Shown here: piece by piece, positions 25,999-42,930 of the stretch
Layout: each line of letters starts with the position of its first letter
Position numbering within the stretch: position 1 is the first letter of the stretch
DNA from: Pararoseomonas sp. SCSIO 73927
GTDB lineage: Bacteria > Pseudomonadota > Alphaproteobacteria > Acetobacterales > Acetobacteraceae
Reading direction: 5' to 3'
DNA: 64,000 nucleotides
NCBI RefSeq assembly: GCF_037040815.1
Contig: NZ_CP146232.1
Span: 5,302,001-5,366,000, forward strand
The notes under the pieces: model-generated
Told to the model about the DNA's origin: nothing
The model's input: the letters and a program-made list of their open reading frames with translations, nothing else
Database searches by the model: none
Program-made: the position numbers and the translations under genes

Positions 25999-26014
25999 TG
26001 GCACGCCCCTCGCA
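25999..26014 (+). promoter_or_regulatory. Sigma-54-type promoter upstream of the TorF porin gene
   Basis: TGGCACG-CCCC-TCGCA matches the RpoN consensus TGGCACG-N4-TTGCA with one mismatch and has exact GG to GC spacing. The predicted start is at 26025, leaving a 34-nt leader before ATG 26059. The upstream activator is not identified. Confidence 0.6.
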
Positions 26015-26058: not shown

Positions 26059-26814
26059 ATGACGACCAGGATCGCAGCCGCGGCGACACTCGCGCTGGGC
26101 CTGACCTTCGCCGCCGGCACCGCCGGCGCCTTCGAGATCGAGAGCGCCGGGCTGACCGTCGGCGTCACGCCGACCGTCTCGTCCGACTACCTGTTCCGCG
26201 GCGTCAGCCAGACCCGGAACCGCCCGGCGGTGCAGGGCACGATCGACATCCAGCACACCACCGGCCTCTATGTCGGCGCCTTCGCCTCCAACGTCACCTT
26301 CCTCGGCACCAATGCCCGGCAGGAAATCGACGCGCTGGCGGGCTGGCGGACCACCTTCGCCGGCGTCAGCCTCGACATCGGCGGCATCGCCTACACCTAC
26401 CCCGGCTACGACAACGCCCCGGGCGCCTACGACCTGCAGTACTTCGAGCTGGCGGCGAAGGCGAGCTACGAGATCCCGAACCTGCCGGTGCCGGTGAAGG
26501 TTCTGGGCGCCTTCAACTGGTCGCCGAACTACCAGCTGGAGAGCGGCGACAGCTTCTACGTCGAGGGCGGCGTGGAAATCGGCCTGCCCTACAATTTCAC
26601 GCTCGCGGGCCGCGCGGGCTACCAGTGGATCCAGAACAACACGCGCTGGGGATCGCCCGATTTCGCGAACTGGAACGTGACGCTGTCCTACAAGTTCTCG
26701 GACTTCGTGCTCACGGCCGGCTACTACGACACGAATCTGAGCAGGAGCGAGTGCTTCGGCAGCCAGAAGATCTGCGAGGCGCGCGCGATGGTCTTCCTCA
26801 GCCGCACCTTCTGA
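26059..26814 (+). CDS. TorF-family putative porin
   Basis: A 251-residue outer-membrane beta-barrel protein of the TorF (Gcw_chp) family. A Sec signal peptide (MTTRIAAAATLALGLTFAAG, cleaved near TAGAF) is followed by VGVTPTVSSDYLFRGVSQT, the family signature, then alternating amphipathic strands ending in FLSRTF with a C-terminal Phe, as expected for Bam-assembled proteins. GAGGGGG at 26042-26048 is a possible ribosome-binding site. The upstream sigma-54-like promoter suggests control by nitrogen or another RpoN-linked signal; the transported solute is unknown. Confidence 0.9.
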   Translation: MTTRIAAAATLALGLTFAAGTAGAFEIESAGLTVGVTPTVSSDYLFRGVSQTRNRPAVQGTIDIQHTTGLYVGAFASNVTFLGTNARQEIDALAGWRTTFAGVSLDIGGIAYTYPGYDNAPGAYDLQYFELAAKASYEIPNLPVPVKVLGAFNWSPNYQLESGDSFYVEGGVEIGLPYNFTLAGRAGYQWIQNNTRWGSPDFANWNVTLSYKFSDFVLTAGYYDTNLSRSECFGSQKICEARAMVFLSRTF

Positions 26815-31455: not shown

Positions 31456-32532
31456 TCACAGGAACTTGGTGAGCGAGAGGCCGGAGAGCATCGAGAGCGC
31501 CTGCCAGGAGGCCTGGAGGCGCGTCTGCGTGTCCTGCAGCGCGGTCAGCGTGGCGGCGAGGTCGACCTCCTCCACGTCGGAGAGCTGGGAGTTGAGGGCG
31601 AGCCCCATGTCCTCGTGGCGCGTCCTCGCCGCCTTCAGGCGCGATTCGGAGAGGCCGAGCGCGCCCGCCTCCTCGCCCAGCCCCGTCATGGCGGATTTCA
31701 GGCCCGCCTTCACGCCCGTCATCACCGCGTCGAAGTCGGGGCCGGCGGCGGTCTGGCCCGGGGTGAGGTTGGCGAGGGTCATCAGGCCGCGCAGCAGGTC
31801 GCGGGACCAGCTGCCGGTCTCGCTGCCCGTGCCGGAGGCGGCGGCGTTGCGGCTGGCGAAGAGGCCGGTGCCGATCGATTCGCCATCCCCCGTCAGGGTG
31901 GTGGGGCGGGGCTCCCCGCCGCCCCTCGCCGGGTCCAGCGCGTAGTCGGAGAAGGGCGTCTGGCCCGGGGCGGTGCCCGTCGCCGCCGCCAGCGTGCCGG
32001 CGAGCACGGCGGCGCCGTTCCCCGGTGCCAGGGAGAGGACGGCCGCCGCGATGTCCGTGGCCATGGGCGTGCCCATGATGCCGGCGGGGCTCGGGATGGG
32101 CGGGTTCGCCGTGTCGGCACCGCCGAACAGGTAGCTGCTTCCCTGCTTCTCGTTCAGCAGCGCGGCCACTTGGTACACCGCGTCCCGCGCGCCGCTCGCG
32201 AGCGAGGCGATGCGGGTGCTGTCGGCGGTGGTGATCTTGCCGGCCTCGGTCAGGAAGCCCTGCGCGAGGGAGGAGAGCTGGGCCAGCGCGTCCTGCGCCG
32301 CGGCGGTGGTGCCGAGCGCGCGGTCGATGCCGGCGATGTGGGTCTCGCGCCGGCCGATCTCGCCGCGCAGGCTGATGGCGCGCGCGGCCTCCCCCGCGAA
32401 GTCCCCGTACCAGGTGCCGCGCCGCCCGTCCGCCGACTGCGCGGCCAGGGTGGTGAGCTGCGCCTTGATGACGGAGGATTGCTGCACCAGCCGCGCCAGC
32501 GCGCCGGAGGCGATCCCCGCGATCGCCATCAC
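31456..32532 (-). CDS. flgL: Flagellar hook-associated protein 3 (FlgL)
   Basis: Junction protein between hook and filament, a flagellin homologue of 358 residues. The C-terminus (RLQASWQALSMLSGLSLTKFL) and the N-terminal helix match FlgL. The EKQGSSYLFGGADTANPPI segment is typical of alphaproteobacterial members. The start is GTG at 32532, overlapping the flgK stop codon by GTGA; the adjacent ATG at 32529 would work equally well. It is downstream of flgE and flgK. Confidence 0.9.
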   Translation of the reverse strand: MMAIAGIASGALARLVQQSSVIKAQLTTLAAQSADGRRGTWYGDFAGEAARAISLRGEIGRRETHIAGIDRALGTTAAAQDALAQLSSLAQGFLTEAGKITTADSTRIASLASGARDAVYQVAALLNEKQGSSYLFGGADTANPPIPSPAGIMGTPMATDIAAAVLSLAPGNGAAVLAGTLAAATGTAPGQTPFSDYALDPARGGGEPRPTTLTGDGESIGTGLFASRNAAASGTGSETGSWSRDLLRGLMTLANLTPGQTAAGPDFDAVMTGVKAGLKSAMTGLGEEAGALGLSESRLKAARTRHEDMGLALNSQLSDVEEVDLAATLTALQDTQTRLQASWQALSMLSGLSLTKFL

Positions 32533-34052
32533 CGCACCGCCTGGAAGAGGGTGTCGTACATCGTCTGCACGGTGGAGACGAGGCGGGCATTGGCCGAGTA
32601 GGCCGTCTGCAGCGCGATCATCGCGGCCAGTTCCTTGTCCATGTCCACGCCGGACTCCGCGGAGAAGCGGCTCTCCAGCGCGGCGAGCAGGTCGCCCGAT
32701 CCCTCTGCGGCCTCCTCCGCCTCCGCGCGGGCCGCGGTCTGGGCGGAGACGAGAGAGGAGGCGTAGCCGCCGAGGCTTCGGTTGGAGCGGAGGGAGGAGG
32801 CGAGGTTGCCGCCCGGGCCGAGGCCGGTGGTGGCGAAGCCGGGCTGCGGGACCCCGTTGGAGACCTGGGTGCCGAAGGTGTTGTTCAGGACCCGGTCGAT
32901 GAGGGTGGTGAACGCCGCGGGGCCGGAAGCGGGGTTCGGGGTGAAGGCCGTTGCGCCGCCCGCGCCGGCCGCCACGGCGTGGGTGCCGTCGCGCAATCTG
33001 TCGGGGCTTGCCGTCACGGCCGGGTTCACGCGGATCGTGCCGGCAAAGCCGATCCAGCCGCCGGTGGCGTAGGCGGCGGAGGGGTCGGGCACGGCGCCGG
33101 CATCGCCGGTGAAGAGGGCGAGGCCCTGCGCGTCGAAGCGCGCGGCGAGGGTTGCGGCGGAGACGTCCAGCTCCGCCTGGGCAAGGGGCAGCTCGGTGTC
33201 GCGCAGGGCGGCGTGGGCGGCCAGGGTGCCGCCACCCAGCCGGGCCGTGACGTCGGTGGTGCCGAGCATCACGCCCGGAAGCGTGCCGCCGCTGCCGTGA
33301 TAGGTCTCCGGCCCGAGCGTGGCATCGGCGAGGGAGAAGGGGCCGCCTTCCGAGTGGAGGGGCAGGTTCAGCCCGCCGGCGGTGATGAGGGTGACGCCGC
33401 CATCCGCCCCGGGAACGGCCTTCACCTGCATCATGGAGGAGAGGGCGGCGACGGCCGCGTCGCGCCCATCCTCCAGCTCCGCCGTGCTCCTCCCCTGCGC
33501 GCGCAGGGGAATGATCTGGGCTGTGAGGTCGGAGATCTTCCGCAGCGCGTCGTTCAGCGCCTTCACGTCCCCCACCATCGCGTCCTGCGCGCCCTGGCGC
33601 GCCTCCTGGATCGCGGAGGAGACGGCGGCGTAGCGCTCCACCAGGTTCCGCGCGGCGCCCACAGTCCGGGACTGGAGCAGCGTGTCGGAGGGGTTCCCGC
33701 GCAGCGCCGTGAAGGCGTCGCCGAGGGCGGCGGTGAGGTCCGCGACGGATTCGCCCGTGGCGCCGTGCGCCATCTCCACGCTCTTGAGCAGGGTGGCGCG
33801 GGCACCCGCGGCCTCGGTGGCGGCGCGCGCCGCGTTCATCCTGTTCACCAGCGCCGCATCCACTGCCCGCGTCGCCTCCGCGCTGCGGACGCCGGAGGAG
33901 AGCGTGCCGGCGACCAGCGCCTCGCCCCGCACCTCCTTGCGGGTGTAGCCGGGGGTGGCGGCGTTCGCGACGTTGGCGGCCGATTGGGCGAGCTGCCGGT
34001 TGACGTGGGACAGGCCGCTGCGCGCGATGGACAGGGCGAGGTCGAGACTCAT
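32529..34052 (-). CDS. flgK: Flagellar hook-associated protein 1 (FlgK)
   Basis: A 507-residue junction protein that caps the hook before filament growth. The N-terminus follows the rod/hook signature (LDLALSIARSGLSHVNRQLAQ, then SAANVANAATPGYTRKEV), and the C-terminus ends in the flagellar axial motif region (LAAMIALQTAYSANARLVST). The middle part is variable, as usual. It is 57 nt downstream of flgE and overlaps flgL, so transcription probably starts at the sigma-54 promoter upstream of flgE. Confidence 0.94.
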   Translation of the reverse strand: MSLDLALSIARSGLSHVNRQLAQSAANVANAATPGYTRKEVRGEALVAGTLSSGVRSAEATRAVDAALVNRMNAARAATEAAGARATLLKSVEMAHGATGESVADLTAALGDAFTALRGNPSDTLLQSRTVGAARNLVERYAAVSSAIQEARQGAQDAMVGDVKALNDALRKISDLTAQIIPLRAQGRSTAELEDGRDAAVAALSSMMQVKAVPGADGGVTLITAGGLNLPLHSEGGPFSLADATLGPETYHGSGGTLPGVMLGTTDVTARLGGGTLAAHAALRDTELPLAQAELDVSAATLAARFDAQGLALFTGDAGAVPDPSAAYATGGWIGFAGTIRVNPAVTASPDRLRDGTHAVAAGAGGATAFTPNPASGPAAFTTLIDRVLNNTFGTQVSNGVPQPGFATTGLGPGGNLASSLRSNRSLGGYASSLVSAQTAARAEAEEAAEGSGDLLAALESRFSAESGVDMDKELAAMIALQTAYSANARLVSTVQTMYDTLFQAVR

Positions 34053-34109: not shown

Positions 34110-35408
34110 TCAGCGGCGCATGTTGATCGTGTCCTGGAGCAGCTCGTCCGAGGCGGTGACGATCTTCGTGTTCGCGGCGTAGGCGCGCTGCGCGAGGATG
34201 AGTTTCGAGAACTCCGAGGCGATGTCCACGTTGGAGCTCTCCAGCGAGGAGGTGACGATCTTGCCGCCGCCGTTCGAGGCCGCGTCGTTCACCCGCGCCT
34301 CGCCGCTCTCGGTCGTGCGGAGATAGGCCTGGCCGTCCACCTTCTGCAGCCTGTCCGGGTCGGCGAAGGTCACGACGGGCACGCGGCCGATGTTGCGGCT
34401 CTCGCCGTTGTCGTAGTTCACGGTCAGGTCGCCGTTGTCGCTGAGCGAGACGGAGGAGAAGCTGCCCTGTGGCACGCCGTCCTGCCGGAGGTAGCGCAGC
34501 GTGTACTCCGTGCCCGCGTACTGCGTCATGCCGGAGGGCTGGCCGAAACTGCCGAGGTTGAGCTGGATGGTCTGAGCGCCCTGGCCGAAATCGGCGGAGA
34601 AGGTCACGGTCGCCGGATCGCCCGGCACCGCCGCGCTGCCCGTCAGCCCCGTGCCCGTGCCGAAGGACCCGATCGTGCCGGCGGCGGTGGTGGGGCTGGC
34701 GGCGGTGCCGAAGTTCACGTCGATGGTGCGCGTGGTCACGCCCGAGCCGTCATCCGGGATGTTCATGGAGAGCTGCCAAGTGTTGGTGCCCGTGTTCGTC
34801 CAGGTCATGTCCACCGCGTGCAGGCGGCCGAGGCTATCGTAGATCTGGATGCTGGCATTCGCCGGGGTGGTGGTGGAATCCGCGGGCAGGTTGGCGGAGA
34901 GGTTCACGTTGCTCGTCGCCACGGGGTTGTAGACGGACTGATCCACCCGCAGCGGCCCGATGTTGGACCGGTCCGGCGCGCCGTTCGCGCCCGTGGCCCA
35001 GCCCTGCAGGTAGTAGCCCTGGCCGTTCACCAGGTAGCCGTCCGTGTTCATGCCGAAGTCGCCGGCGCGGGTGTAGTAGGTGCGCGCGTCGAAGGTGGTC
35101 GCGCCGTTCTCCGTGCCCGTCGCGCTCGACACCGCGAACATGCCCTGCCCCGCGATCGCCATGGCCAGCGGGTTGTCCGAGGACTGCACCGTGCCCTGCA
35201 CGGAGACGGTGTAGTCCGGCCGCGCGGCGACGGAACCGGGCTGGTTCACCCCCGCGGTGGAGCGGGTGACGTAGGAGACGAAGTTCGTGTCCGTGCGCTT
35301 GAAGCCGGTGGTTTGGCTGTTCGCCACGTTGTCTGCGACATTGCCGAGCGCGCGCGACTGGGCGGTCAGCCCGCTGATGGCCGTGTTCATCGAGGCGTAG
35401 AGCGACAT
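34110..35408 (-). CDS. flgE: Flagellar hook protein FlgE
   Basis: Structural subunit of the hook, 432 residues. The N-terminus (SLYASMNTAISGLTAQSRAL, then DNVANSQTTGFKRTDTNF) and the C-terminal helix (SNVDIASEFSKLILAQRAYA, ending DTINMRR) are standard. ATG 35408 follows ACGGAGCCCGGC. A near-perfect sigma-54 promoter lies 62 nt upstream of the start codon on this strand, and a FlbD-like dyad beyond it. Longer frames upstream are shadows of fliK DNA. Confidence 0.96.
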   Translation of the reverse strand: MSLYASMNTAISGLTAQSRALGNVADNVANSQTTGFKRTDTNFVSYVTRSTAGVNQPGSVAARPDYTVSVQGTVQSSDNPLAMAIAGQGMFAVSSATGTENGATTFDARTYYTRAGDFGMNTDGYLVNGQGYYLQGWATGANGAPDRSNIGPLRVDQSVYNPVATSNVNLSANLPADSTTTPANASIQIYDSLGRLHAVDMTWTNTGTNTWQLSMNIPDDGSGVTTRTIDVNFGTAASPTTAAGTIGSFGTGTGLTGSAAVPGDPATVTFSADFGQGAQTIQLNLGSFGQPSGMTQYAGTEYTLRYLRQDGVPQGSFSSVSLSDNGDLTVNYDNGESRNIGRVPVVTFADPDRLQKVDGQAYLRTTESGEARVNDAASNGGGKIVTSSLESSNVDIASEFSKLILAQRAYAANTKIVTASDELLQDTINMRR

Positions 35409-35480
35409 GCCGGGCTCCGTGCGATGGTCGGTGGGGTAGGATGTCGGGCCCCGGCTTTTCCTGGCGCCCGGCATTCCCGG

Positions 35481-35496
35481 CGCAACGCCCGTGCCA
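35481..35496 (-). promoter_or_regulatory. Sigma-54 promoter of flgE
   Basis: Read on the minus strand, TGGCACG-GGCG-TTGCG agrees with the RpoN consensus at every conserved position. The predicted start is 35470, 62 nt before ATG 35408. The -24 element begins 39 bp from the CGGCA-N5-TGCCG dyad. Confidence 0.85.
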
Positions 35497-35534
35497 GCCC
35501 CGTGGCGGGTTCCCGGCGGCGGGGCCTGCCGAAG

Positions 35535-35553
35535 GGCGGCAAGCCCTGCCGCC
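35535..35553. promoter_or_regulatory. Candidate FlbD enhancer (ftr-like dyad) between flgE and fliK
   Basis: GGCGGCA-AGCCC-TGCCGCC, a perfect dyad with 7-bp arms. The core CGGC-N7-GCCG has the geometry I remember for Caulobacter ftr sites bound by FlbD, although the central AAA is absent. Its centre (35544) is 74 bp from both inferred sigma-54 starts. The same core recurs upstream of fliF (37898-37916). Confidence 0.6.
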
Positions 35554-35591
35554 TTCCGGGCCGGGTTTGCCGTGCCGCGCGCGGCGCGGGC

Positions 35592-35607
35592 TGGCAGGCG
35601 GCTTGCG
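35592..35607 (+). promoter_or_regulatory. Sigma-54 promoter of fliK-flgD
   Basis: TGGCAGG-CGGC-TTGCG fits the RpoN consensus with one change in the -24 element and exact spacing. The predicted start is 35618, 44 nt upstream of the fliK ATG at 35662. Confidence 0.8.
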
Positions 35608-35661
35608 GCTTCCCCGCCCGGGGCCGGCCCGATCCGCGGCGGCCAGGGAGCGGAAACCGTG

Positions 35662-37173
35662 ATGGACGTGCTGGAGAGCCCGCCGGCAGGCGCATCGCCG
35701 CGCATCGTCGCGCCGAGAGGTGCGATCCCGGGAGGTGCCGTGACGAGACATGCCGCGGCCGGGGTGCCGGAGGGCGGCTTCGCGCAGGCACTGCACGATG
35801 CCACGGGCGCGGCGGGGGCGCCTGGTGCGCAGGCCGGGGCCGCGCTGGCGCAGGCAGCCGGATCGCAGGCCGCGGGCGCGGTCACGCCTGAGCCTTCCGC
35901 ACCGGCGACGGGCACCGTCGCCTCCCTGTTCAGGAGCGATGCGGCGCTGTCGGGCACGGCGGAGGCGGAGGCGACGCAGGCCGGCCGCTCTCAGACCGGC
36001 CTCTCTCCAAGCGCCCTCTCTCAAGTCGGCGGGCCGGGAGCGGTGCCGCCGGACGCGGGGGCCGGGGCGGCGCCCGGGCCGACCGCCCGGCAGGGCGAGG
36101 AAGCGGCAGCGCCCGAGCCCGCCCTTCCGGCCGATCCTGTCCGGGAAGGCCCGCCGGGTGGCGAGGGGGACGCGGCCGGGCCGGAAGACGGGGAAGCGAC
36201 GGCTTCCGATGCCGGGCCGGCACCGGAGGGGGCTGTCGCGCCCCCTGCCCTCCCCGTGCATTCCCTCGCTCCGGGCGCGGCCGGGCCGGCACCGCCGCCG
36301 GTTGCCGTTGCGGCGGAGGAGCACCTCGATTTCCGGGAGGCCGCCGGTGCAGGGCGGGCCGGGCCGCCGGCCGCGGCGGCGGCTCCCCACGGTCCCGGTG
36401 CCGCCGCAGCACCGGAGGCGCAGAGGCCCGGCCCTGCCGGGACCGTGCGGAACGAAACCGCCTCAGGGGCGGATACGCGCCCGGAGGAGCCCCGGCGGGA
36501 CACCCTCGCAACGGCAGCATCGGCGGCGGTGGCCCTGGAGGACGCCGCGGCTTCCGGCGCGCCGCCCCCGGAGATCTTCACGGATGATCCGGCGCAGAAA
36601 GGGCTGGCGGACCCCGCCTTGGCCTCCTCTGCCTCCCCGGCCGCGCAAGCCGCCCCCGCCCTTCCGGGCCTGCTTCCCGCGCCGCCGCCGATGGCCATCA
36701 TCCCGCCCGCTGCATCGGCCGAGGCCCCGCGCCTGGTGCCGCGCACCGCCCCCATCGAGCAGGTGGCGCCCGTCGCCATCGCGGTCGCCCTGGGCGGCGC
36801 GGACGGGCGGATCGCCATCAGCCTGGACCCGGTGGAGCTCGGCCGCGTGGAGGTGGTGGTGGAGCGGGCAGGCGACGCCGCGCACGTCCAGGTGGCGGCG
36901 GAGCGGCCGGAGACCCTCGCCCTGCTGGCCCGCGACGGGGCGGCGCTGGATCGTGCCCTCGGCGGCGCCGGGATCGGCGAGGGCGGGCGCAGCCTGAGCT
37001 TCTCCCTTCTTTCCGATTCCGGCGCGGGGTCCGGGGGCGGCTTCTGCGGTGGGGGTGGCGGGCGGGAAGAGGGCCGCCGCCCCGGCGGGGGTTGGGCGGC
37101 CGAACGCAACGCGGCGGAGGAGGCGGGCCCGGGGCGCCGCGCCCTCCTCGGCCTGCTCGACATCGCGATCTGA
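35662..37173 (+). CDS. fliK: Flagellar hook-length control protein FliK
   Basis: Molecular ruler that stops hook growth and switches export specificity. The 503-residue protein is mostly Ala/Pro/Gly-rich and disordered, as expected. The folded C-terminal core is visible near residues 370-450 (VAIAVALGGADGRIAISLDP, VELGRVEVVVE, LALLARDGAALDRALGGAGI) and is followed by a Gly-rich tail. ATG 35662 has GGGAGCGG upstream. It is 13 nt upstream of flgD, and both probably depend on the sigma-54 promoter at 35592. The low-complexity 5' part is supported mainly by frame, start signal and position. Confidence 0.87.
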   Translation: MDVLESPPAGASPRIVAPRGAIPGGAVTRHAAAGVPEGGFAQALHDATGAAGAPGAQAGAALAQAAGSQAAGAVTPEPSAPATGTVASLFRSDAALSGTAEAEATQAGRSQTGLSPSALSQVGGPGAVPPDAGAGAAPGPTARQGEEAAAPEPALPADPVREGPPGGEGDAAGPEDGEATASDAGPAPEGAVAPPALPVHSLAPGAAGPAPPPVAVAAEEHLDFREAAGAGRAGPPAAAAAPHGPGAAAAPEAQRPGPAGTVRNETASGADTRPEEPRRDTLATAASAAVALEDAAASGAPPPEIFTDDPAQKGLADPALASSASPAAQAAPALPGLLPAPPPMAIIPPAASAEAPRLVPRTAPIEQVAPVAIAVALGGADGRIAISLDPVELGRVEVVVERAGDAAHVQVAAERPETLALLARDGAALDRALGGAGIGEGGRSLSFSLLSDSGAGSGGGFCGGGGGREEGRRPGGGWAAERNAAEEAGPGRRALLGLLDIAI

Positions 37174-37186
37174 CGGGAGACGGGAC

Positions 37187-37873
37187 ATGGCCACCACCAC
37201 CGCGACGACACCGACCACCAACACCGCAAACGCCGGCACCGCGGCCGCCGGCGCCTCCACCACCGCCCGCACGCAGCTGGCGGGCAGCTTCAACAACTTC
37301 CTCACGCTGCTGACGACGCAGCTGAAGAACCAGTCCCCCACCGATCCGCTCGACACCAACGAGATGACGGCGCAGCTCGTGCAGTTCGCCTCGGTGGAGC
37401 AGCAGATCGCGATGAACGGGAACCTGGAGTCGATGGTCGCGCTCCAGCAGGCCGCGCAGCTCACCGCCGCCTCGCCGATGCTCGGGCAGCGGGTGGAGGT
37501 GCAGGGCGATCAGCTGCCCTTGCAGGATGGCCGCGCCACGGTGCGGCTGCCCGCCGCAGGGGCCGCGCGCACGGCGCGGGTGGCGATCCTGGACGGCAGC
37601 GGCAAGGTGCTGCGCGAGGCGCAGGTGCGGCTCGGCGCGGCGGGGCAGGACTGGAGCTGGGACGGGAAGGACGCCAACGGCAAGCAGCTGCCGGACGGGG
37701 CCTACAAGGTGGCGGTGACCGGCGCGGACACGAATGGCGGCCCCGCCACCACCTCCTTCACCGTGGTTGGTACGGCCACGGCGGCGGAGCGGGTGAACGG
37801 CGCGCTGCGGCTTCGGATGGGCGCGGCGAGCTACGGCTTCGACGCCGTGCGCTCCATCGCCGGCGGGGGCTGA
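37187..37873 (+). CDS. flgD: Flagellar hook capping protein FlgD
   Basis: Scaffold that caps the growing hook, 228 residues. The conserved N-terminal block (FNNFLTLLTTQLKNQSPTDP, then NEMTAQLVQFASVEQQI) is typical. The C-terminal half holds the Ig-like/FlgD module with DWSWDGKDANGKQLPDGAYK. ATG 37187 follows GGGAGACGGGAC. It is probably co-transcribed with fliK. Confidence 0.95.
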   Translation: MATTTATTPTTNTANAGTAAAGASTTARTQLAGSFNNFLTLLTTQLKNQSPTDPLDTNEMTAQLVQFASVEQQIAMNGNLESMVALQQAAQLTAASPMLGQRVEVQGDQLPLQDGRATVRLPAAGAARTARVAILDGSGKVLREAQVRLGAAGQDWSWDGKDANGKQLPDGAYKVAVTGADTNGGPATTSFTVVGTATAAERVNGALRLRMGAASYGFDAVRSIAGGG

Positions 37874-37876
37874 CGC

Positions 37877-37892
37877 GTAACCGCCCGTTAAC
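37877..37892 (+). promoter_or_regulatory. CtrA-like box upstream of fliF
   Basis: GTAA-CCGCCCG-TTAAC matches the CtrA consensus TTAA-N7-TTAAC with one mismatch. It lies right after the flgD stop codon and just upstream of the FlbD-like dyad. In Caulobacter, CtrA activates fliF from such a box. Confidence 0.55.
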
Positions 37893-37897
37893 CCCCA

Positions 37898-37916
37898 CCC
37901 GGCAAGGATTGCCGGG
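37898..37916. promoter_or_regulatory. Candidate FlbD site (ftr-like dyad) at the fliF promoter
   Basis: CCCGGCA-AGGAT-TGCCGGG, a perfect dyad whose inner bases also pair (8-bp arms, 3-nt centre). The core CGGCA-N5-TGCCG equals that at 35535-35553. It sits 5 bp downstream of the CtrA-like box, where it would cover the -10 region. It could alternatively be a weak terminator for flgD, though no T run follows. Confidence 0.55.
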
Positions 37917-41243: not shown

Positions 41244-41554
41244 GCAACGGCTTCGAGCCCGTGAGCGCCGACGAGGCTTCCGAATCCCGCCACATCCCCG
41301 GCGTGCAGGGGCTGGACGCGGTCTACGACATCCCCGTGCAGGTCAGCGCCGTGCTGGGCCGGGCGACGCTGCAGGTGAGCCAGTTGCTGAAACTCGGCCG
41401 CGGCGCGGTGGTGGAGCTGGACCGCAAGCTCGGCGAGGCGGTGGACATCTACGTCAACAACCGCCTCGTCGCGCGCGGCGAGGTGGTGATGGTGGAGGAC
41501 AACCGCCTGGGCGTGACGATGACGGAGATCGTGAAGGCGGACCGCGCGGGATGA
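41240..41554 (+). CDS. fliN: Flagellar motor switch protein FliN
   Basis: C-ring subunit, 104 residues. The SpoA domain reads YDIPVQVSAVLGRATLQVSQ, then LKLGRGAVVELDRKLGEAVD, IYVNNRLVARGEVVMVEDN and RLGVTMTEIV, closely matching FliN. fliM and fliI are not nearby. The gene overlaps fliH and flbD by ATGA, indicating tight translational coupling. Confidence 0.96.
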   Translation: MSNGFEPVSADEASESRHIPGVQGLDAVYDIPVQVSAVLGRATLQVSQLLKLGRGAVVELDRKLGEAVDIYVNNRLVARGEVVMVEDNRLGVTMTEIVKADRAG

Positions 41555-42930
41555 CCCGCCTCCTCATCATCGGCAGCCTGGAGGCGGAGCTGGGCCAGGC
41601 GGCGCGCATCGCCACCTCGCGCGGGGCGCGGCTGCGGCAGGCGGACGGTGTGACATCCGGCATCACCCTGGCGCGGGGCGAGGGATTCGACCTCATTCTC
41701 TGCGACGTGCTGCACGACGTGGCTTGGCTCGTCACCTCCCTGGAGGCGGAGCGGATCGCCTGCCCCGTGGTGGCCTGCGGACGCAACGCCGATGCCGCCG
41801 CCGCTGTGCGCGCCATTCAGGCCGGCGCGAAGGAGTTCCTGCCGCTGCCGCCGGACGCGGAGCTGATCGCGGCCATGCTCCAAGCCGCCATGGGCGAGGC
41901 GGACGCGCCCGTGCACCGCGATCCCGCCATGGCCGCTGTGCTGAAGCGGGCGGAGGGGGTCGCGCGGGCTGAGGCGAGCGTGCTCATCACCGGGGAGAGC
42001 GGCACGGGCAAGGAGGTGCTGGCGCGGCACATCCACCGCCATTCCCGCCGGGCCGAAGGTCCCTTCGTCGCGCTGAACTGCGCGGCGCTGCCGGAGGCGC
42101 TGCTGGAGAGCGAGCTGTTCGGGCACGAGAAGGGCGCCTTCTCCGGCGCCGTGGCCGCCCGCCGCGGCAAGTTCGAGCAGGCCGATGGCGGCACGCTGTT
42201 GCTGGACGAGATCGGCGAGATGGACCCGCGCCTGCAGGCCAAGATCCTGCGCGCCCTGCAGGAGCGGGAGATCGACCGATTGGGCGGAGCCGGCCCGGTG
42301 AGGGTGGACGTGCGGATCCTGGCCGCCACCAACCGCGACCTGTCCGCCGAGGTGGCGGCGGGGCGGTTCCGGGAGGACCTGTTCTTCCGCCTGAACGTGG
42401 TGGCGCTGCGCATCCCCGCCCTGCGCGACCGGCCTGACGACATCCTGCCCATCGCCGAGCACTTCGCCCGCCGCTACGCCGAGGCGAACGGCATGCCGCA
42501 GCGGCGCTTTGCCCCCGCCGCACGCGCCGCGCTGCTGGGCCATACCTGGCCGGGGAACGTGCGAGAACTGGAGAACACCGTGCACCGCGCCGTGCTGCTG
42601 GCCGAGGGCGACGACATCGGCGCGGAGGCCGTGGAGCTGCACGTCCCCGCGCCGCGCGCCGCCACGGCCGCCATGCCCGAAGCGCAGGCCGCGCGACCGG
42701 TGGGCGTGGCCGCACTCGTCGGGCGGCGCATGGAGGAGGTGGAGCGCGACCTGATCCTGGAGACGCTGACGCACTGCCTGGGGAACCGCACACGCGCGGC
42801 GGAGATCCTCGGCATCTCCATCCGCACGCTGCGGAACAAGCTGCATGAGTACCGCGCGGCCGGTGCCGCGGTGCCGATGGCGCCGGGGCAGATGCCGATG
42901 GCGCCCTTCCCCTACGCGCAGCTGGGCTGA
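41551..42930 (+). CDS. flbD: Sigma-54-dependent flagellar regulator FlbD
   Basis: Enhancer-binding activator of late flagellar genes, 459 residues. The receiver-like N-terminus keeps Asp52 (LILCDVLHD) but lacks the usual acidic pair after the first strand and the conserved lysine (PLPP instead of KP), so classical phospho-relay control is doubtful, as in Caulobacter FlbD. The AAA+ domain has Walker A GESGTGKE at 148-155 and GAFSGA at 195-200, where sigma-54 activators normally have GAFTGA. The C-terminal Fis-like HTH is [20 protein letters not shown]. Its likely targets are the dyads at 35535-35553 and 37898-37916. It overlaps fliN by ATGA. Confidence 0.94.

Follow-up and report, generated by a model that had tools for sequence, protein, structure and literature searches.

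The 96-bp stretch between two divergent sigma-54 (RpoN) promoters upstream of flgE and fliK in Pararoseomonas sp. SCSIO 73927 is very probably a compact enhancer, controlled by FlbD, for the two hook operons flgE-flgK-flgL and fliK-flgD. At its centre lies an inverted repeat, the dyad, whose spacing from the promoters was compared across related genomes. Phase, not equal spacing, is the conserved property of the arrangement, and mirror symmetry is common. The features of the locus, within the 64,000-nucleotide stretch of DNA that was analysed (the window), are listed in Table 1.

Table 1 Features of the flgE/fliK region, in window positions.
Feature	Position	Strand	Details
sigma-54 promoter of flgE-flgK-flgL operon	35481..35496	-	TGGCACG-GGCG-TTGCG, read directly; predicted start ~35470
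sigma-54 promoter of fliK-flgD operon	35592..35607	+	TGGCAGG-CGGC-TTGCG, read directly; predicted start ~35618
Central dyad	35535..35553	.	GGCGGCA-AGCCC-TGCCGCC; core CGGCA-N5-TGCCG at 35537-35551; proposed FlbD (ftr-like) enhancer
Weaker second dyad	35517..35531	.	CGGCG-GGGCC-TGCCG
CtrA-like box	37877..37891	+	GTAA-N7-TTAA, just upstream of the fliF dyad; sole match to the pattern in the window
Second perfect CGGCA-N5-TGCCG of the window	37900..37914	.	in the flgD-fliF gap; ftr4-like, putative site of repression by FlbD
flgL-like hook-filament junction gene	31456..32532	-	Pfam Flagellin_C only
flgK, hook-associated protein 1	32529..34052	-	Pfam FlgK_D1; TIGR02492 above cut-off
flgE, hook protein	34110..35408	-	Pfam FlgE_D2 and others; NCBIfam NF004242 above cut-off
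fliK, hook-length control	35662..37173	+	Pfam Flg_hook PF02120; no NCBIfam match
flgD, hook cap	37142..37873	+	Pfam FlgD, FlgD_ig
flbD, sigma-54 activator	41551..42930	+	Pfam Sigma54_activat, HTH_8 (Fis-type HTH); receiver match below cut-off

The two promoters lie in 253 bp of intergenic DNA, and the first T of either is 48 bp from the centre of the dyad at position 35544. The weaker second dyad, 20 bp from the central one, stands nearer to the flgE promoter (28 bp) than to the fliK promoter (68 bp). On re-reading, the coordinates that the first-pass annotation had given for both promoters and the dyad were all exact; taking the transcription starts as placed there, the dyad centre is indeed equidistant (74 bp) from both +1 positions. 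The flgL-like gene is so named because of its position after flgK.

The sigma-54 consensus is TGGCACG-N4-TTGCW, from which the two promoters depart by one and two mismatches, with the GG and GC cores intact in both. A stricter pattern, TGGCAYG-N4-TTGC, matches eight sites in the 5.59-Mb genome, and its reversed control matches none; the flgE promoter is one of the eight, and the fliK promoter, with G where the pattern has Y, falls outside them. The Caulobacter motif is given as GGCNC-N4-CTTGC in the accessible text of a published account (PMC4287350). The intergenic stretch was shuffled 20,000 times with dinucleotides preserved, and sigma-54 sites were scored with up to two mismatches and intact GG and GC. 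A site occurred in 376 shuffles, a perfect CGGCA-N5-TGCCG in 33 and a divergent sigma-54 pair in none of the 20,000. The observation of a divergent promoter pair with a dyad is thereby confirmed as real and not a product of chance. Genome-wide, the dyad core occurs at 37 sites, fewer than the 72 of its reversed control pattern; the meaning of the dyad stems from its position and conservation and not from genome-wide rarity.

Other sigma-54 sites in this genome were also recorded. Three of the eight strict sites (L196-L198; G000:C1 2796966, 3501458 and 3702300) precede proteins with a PEP-CTERM motif, one of the three motif matches sitting just under the Pfam cut-off, which suggests a putative sigma-54-controlled PEP-CTERM set. 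Within the window, a sigma-54-like sequence, TGGCACG-CCCC-TCGCA (25999-26014, plus strand), lies upstream of a Gcw_chp outer-membrane-like gene (26059-26814).

A comparison of the intergenic region across relatives, which the first-pass annotation had proposed as a check, was carried out with flgE as the anchor, using 30 loci (L001-L030, the first being the focal window) and 69 more from a genome collection, the top ones Roseomonas-like. From 97 upstream stretches, 19 near-duplicates were removed to leave 78, and six outside the group were set aside, giving 72 loci taken as Acetobacteraceae, a few of which are metagenome assemblies whose titles give no more than Rhodospirillales or Alphaproteobacteria. 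FliK or FlgD matches, where seen in these loci, always lay upstream of flgE on the opposite strand; some short loci had neither. Promoter pairs were picked by mismatch, with gaps of 60-200 bp allowed and a small penalty outside 80-140 bp; phase was not used in the choice. A divergent sigma-54 pair precedes flgE in 71 of the 72 thinned loci, the sole exception being L030. Between the promoters, CGGCA-N5-TGCCG with at most one mismatch is found in all 71 paired loci, and it is perfect in 60, with exactly one perfect copy in 56 and two in four. Beyond the core, the two outermost positions of each 7-bp arm are only partly kept (left-arm G in 55 and 59 percent of 64 perfect core dyads from relatives, a count in which the core positions are fixed by the choice of perfect dyads). 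The comparison thus bore out the conservation of the dyad and revealed a helically phased spacing.

Distances from the dyad centre to the promoters cluster at 27-28, 38, 48-49, 58-60, 69-70 and 79-80 bp. Across the 71 loci there are 142 primary distances, of which 134 fall no more than 2 bp from the lattice 27.5 + 10.5k, the eight others being 72, 83, 84 (three times), 85, 88 and 93. At a period of 10.5 bp, the primary distances give a resultant length R of 0.859 and the full set of 222 distances one of 0.863, and both promoters are within 2 bp of the lattice from the best dyad in 63 of 71 loci. A test on unique distance values overcounts near-identical neighbours, and a tree-based test was therefore relied on instead, with changes counted on a tree of FlgE because related loci are not independent. 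This test used the 56 loci with exactly one perfect dyad (15 of the 71 were dropped). Its null drew change sizes uniformly from 4 to 60 bp, and the FlgE tree behind it was a quick one in which several deep forks are weak. For the distance to the flgE promoter (15 of 21 changes of at least 4 bp) the whole-turn fit was matched in 29 of 20,000 random draws, and on the fliK side (12 of 16 changes of at least 4 bp) in none of 20,000. For the promoter-to-promoter gap alone (11 of 21 changes of at least 4 bp) the fit was marginal, being matched in 1,092 of 20,000. As the dyad-side fits are strong and the gap fit is marginal, the phase between dyad and promoter is better kept than the overall gap. Under midpoint rooting the joint state at the root came out as 48/48, but the fliK side taken by itself gave 27.

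In 31 of 71 loci the two promoters are equally far, to within 1 bp, from the best dyad, which makes 48/48 the commonest state, and in 34 of 71 this is true of some dyad. The identical geometry claimed for the two promoters therefore holds for the focal genome and for these 31 loci, but it is not required, as 80/27 and close variants (14 loci), 70/27, 48/59, 71/60 and further states also occur. Among loci with one perfect dyad and no other within one mismatch, that single site is phased to both promoters within 2 bp in 31 of 35. Together with the presence of the dyad in every paired locus and the whole-turn changes, this supports the proposal that a single shared enhancer serves the two hook operons. 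The proposal that the enhancer is one dyad survives in part: the central dyad would be shared, but there is probably more than one site. With one mismatch allowed, 31 of 71 loci contain secondary sites, 40 in total, where shuffled flanks predict 0.9. For 31 of the 40, the distance to the flgE promoter is 27, 28 or 69 bp, which places them some 21 bp away from the usual central position. Sigma-54 activators of FlbD's family assemble from dimers into a ring, and an array of sites on the same helix face fits such a protein. The same secondary sites, which the focal genome also has, would be expected if the central dyad served one promoter and the dyad at 35517-35531 the other, with no sharing. 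We regard separate enhancers of this kind as unlikely, since 40 of 71 loci have no second site within one mismatch and the single-dyad loci are so often phased to both promoters.

Which protein binds the putative shared enhancer was approached through the genes of the locus and the other places where the motif occurs. As the first-pass annotation had said, flbD is encoded in the same locus; it starts 3.7 kb past the end of flgD and runs in the same direction as fliK. The best NCBIfam model for its product is NF050807 FlbD (TransRegFlbDCaul), at 653.9 bits, followed by the next model at 372.2. This score misses the equivalog cut-off of 750 bits, set for Caulobacter, and we therefore call the protein FlbD-like, outside that equivalog; it is likely the orthologue in another order. 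The partner of FlbD, FliX, is also encoded in the genome, by a gene adjoining flgI (PF10768, E 1.2e-20).

The motif recurs at flgI. The focal genome has a dyad between fliX and flgI, 27 bp ahead of the strict sigma-54 site that precedes flgI. Genomes with a match numbered 46, and 30 flgI loci were fetched; one had no anchor, and 29, the focal one included, were readable. A dyad lies upstream of the sigma-54 site in 25 of the 29, at 27 bp (10 loci), 28 bp (6), 51 bp (5) or otherwise 39, 50, 61 or 69 bp. It recurs again upstream of fliF, where among 29 relatives' loci, two near-duplicates included, a perfect dyad is present in 13 and one within one mismatch in 18. No sigma-54 site with up to two mismatches was found upstream of fliF in any of these 29 loci. 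The 11 fliF loci without any dyad are all metagenome assemblies of one group. The sequence GTAA-N7-TTAA, which we take to be the CtrA-like consensus, occurs in seven of the 29, and in all seven the dyad centre lies 29-31 bp further on (10 of 1,450 shuffles); box and dyad are arranged alike in the window (37877-37914). The dyad is thus found both at hook promoters and at fliF, a distribution that would suit ftr elements. Among the 37 dyads of the genome (35 scanned and the two of the window, the upstream side at L124 lying outside the scan), a convincing sigma-54 promoter is nearby only at flgE/fliK and flgI. One further dyad (L126; G000:C1 2779027) has a weak sigma-54-like sequence, CGGCACGCCCCTTGCC, 90 bp away.

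FlbD and the dyad also tend to occur together. An FlbD match with an E value of 7.4e-111 or lower is present in each of the 30 genomes that supplied the loci L001-L030. In 34 further genomes of the family, counted without regard to kinship, a dyad with at most one mismatch lies within 300 bp of the flgE promoter in 26, and 24 of these 26 have an FlbD match (partial in G017, G047 and G082). The two others, the draft assemblies G046 and G078, have the dyad and no FlbD-grade match. Seven of the 34 have a complete upstream stretch with no dyad and no sigma-54 site better than three mismatches; in a further genome, G087, the upstream stretch ends at a contig edge. Five of the seven (G035, G038, G050, G061 and G067) have no FlbD match of at least 55 percent identity, and G022 and G044 have FlbD fragments only. 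A second flgE was noted in G002 (contig C38; L195, L281). Its sigma-54 site, TGGCACG-GGCG-TTGCT, is strong, and the contig also carries an FlbD-like gene (69% identical); no CGGCA-N5-TGCCG dyad was found there, and this paralogue may use a different site.

The motif at flgI/fliX and fliF, the flbD gene of the locus and the missing or fragmentary FlbD in all seven genomes that lack the dyad support FlbD as the likely activator, as had been suggested from the sequence, and FlbD appears to be the best assignment for the dyad. A true enhancer bound by some other activator is improbable. The genome has four candidates besides FlbD, with PF00158 matches above 180 bits at five places (three weaker ones also pass the cut-off), and G046 and G078 have dyads and no FlbD-grade match; but the motif stands at flgE/fliK, flgI/fliX and fliF, and in Caulobacter, according to the accessible parts of the sources, fliK and fliF are controlled by FlbD (PMC3096577, PMC3930126), flgI is named as RpoN/FlbD-dependent (PMC6180460), and FliX is the partner of FlbD, licensing it on completion of the basal body (PMC3096577). 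Very unlikely is the reading that the repeat has nothing to do with activation and arose by chance, or serves a structural role such as that of a terminator hairpin, in DNA of 73% GC: its core is no commoner genome-wide than the reversed control, but it is present in every paired locus, is helically phased across these loci and has similar spacings at flgI, and it lies upstream of both predicted starts and is therefore not expected in either transcript.

The lattice was also compared more widely. In an extra set of 53 loci from the wider family, 21 with a promoter pair and a dyad were used for distances (at L145, L146, L148, L149 and L162 there were two equally good sites, of which one was taken). 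R was 0.74 for the 18 distances below 65 bp, 0.41 for the 24 longer ones and 0.41 overall; the phase is kept at the shorter distances, and beyond 65 bp the lattice in the wider family is looser.

In other families, none of 17 class-level flgE loci has a promoter pair: at L168 a perfect dyad lies 61 bp from a lone sigma-54 site, four loci have a one-mismatch dyad only and twelve have nothing. There, flgE lies behind flgD in four of five stretches, the four in which both genes were matched, so the missing pairs are mostly uninformative. The nine loci from outside the family divide into L084-L088 (Parvibaculum and kin), where a dyad within one mismatch lies upstream of the flgE sigma-54 site, and L093, L094, L096 and L097, which have no dyad. 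In five long stretches from other families, dyads lie 61 to 114 bp from sigma-54 sites, and the best period is 10.8 bp with an R of only 0.60, on seven hand-chosen distances that leave out those of L275 (117/88), of the second dyad and third promoter of L278 (88, 84, 18 and 37) and of L279 (105). In L278, one of the five, flgK and fliK are opposed around the dyad. Strong matches to the Caulobacter FlgE model were found in three genomes of another family among 385 searched, two of them above cut-off. In these three (L273-L275), flgK faces flgD, fliK is matched in one, and divergent sigma-54 sites are 147, 150 and 205 bp apart; dyads with at most one mismatch lie between and downstream of the promoters in L275 and downstream (one) in L274, and there is none near in L273.

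The following model is inferred as regards the binding of FlbD, the transcript starts, the sharing of one complex by both promoters and the checkpoint through FliX. FlbD dimers would bind the CGGCA-N5-TGCCG dyad and the weaker neighbour about 20 bp away, and the bound FlbD would assemble into a ring, which would remodel the sigma-54 RNA polymerase at either promoter. On completion of the basal body FlbD would be licensed by FliX, with the result that the hook, hook-length and hook-cap genes would be turned on together. The 48 bp on each side leave hardly any space for a bent loop, and a scan for the IHF consensus gave no match between the promoters in the 71 loci. With short arms that lack an IHF consensus, helical phase should matter, in line with the spacing. 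A more specific picture is offered tentatively: one FlbD enhancer, at distances of mostly 27 to 80 bp from a pair of opposed promoters, would act without IHF from a fixed helix face; enhancer and promoters would shift by whole turns in evolution; and one ring might alternate between the promoters, setting the balance of hook protein against ruler and cap.

Together the loci amount to some 70 naturally occurring spacing variants of one sigma-54 enhancer that has two promoters, and evolution has sorted these variants into helical steps. They allow the minimal enhancer distance that needs no bending protein to be tested with real variants, and they allow a test of whether one activator ring serves two opposed promoters. 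CGGCA-N5-TGCCG with phased spacing is, in addition, a candidate FlbD motif for predicting flagellar regulons in Alphaproteobacteria. In a literature search that covered few subscription papers, we found no description of this Acetobacteraceae arrangement or of its helical-step pattern; nothing was returned for FlbD together with Acetobacteraceae, and no title listed on shared, divergent or helix-face sigma-54 enhancers was recognised as a precedent.

Several known systems resemble parts of this arrangement. Mullin and Newton reportedly described in 1993 the divergent flaN/flbG operons of Caulobacter crescentus, with a sigma-54 promoter and the downstream elements ftr2 and ftr3. Like that system, which we know by title, the present one has two divergent flagellar operons, sigma-54 promoters and candidate ftr elements, the sites of FlbD. 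Here, however, flgE is joined with flgK-flgL, opposite fliK-flgD, and the dyad sits midway, at 48/48 bp, in a gap of 96 bp that, as in the other paired loci, lacks an IHF consensus. At bacterial enhancers, for example that of NtrC at nifLA, activation depends on the face of the helix, as laboratory insertions showed; the phase described here is instead an evolutionary pattern across genera and concerns two promoters at once. Caulobacter class III and IV flagellar genes require IHF, according to the accessible text (PMC3096577); the promoter gaps seen here lack an IHF consensus.

For fliF, the likeness is to Caulobacter ftr4, which the accessible text places upstream of that gene (PMC3930126). 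Here a dyad likewise lies upstream of fliF with no sigma-54 site, beside a CtrA-like box in seven loci and in the window. FlbD acts as a repressor at ftr4 and as an activator at the ftr elements of middle and late genes (PMC3930126, same text); a repressor role for the fliF dyad of the window is only proposed. At Rhodobacter sphaeroides fliL2p-fliF2p, mutagenesis showed a pair of divergent flagellar promoters to be activated from one CtrA site, and a same-face constraint is suggested by the authors (PMC6180460, accessible part). A single activator site thus lies between two divergent flagellar promoters there as here, but that activator is CtrA and not a sigma-54 enhancer protein; in the same part of that source, the four RpoN proteins are described as uninvolved and FlbD as absent. 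Divergent flagellar operons with sigma-54 promoters and ftr elements, and one site for two promoters, are therefore known; the present arrangement differs in its activator or operon contents, in its compact 96-bp layout and in having no IHF consensus.
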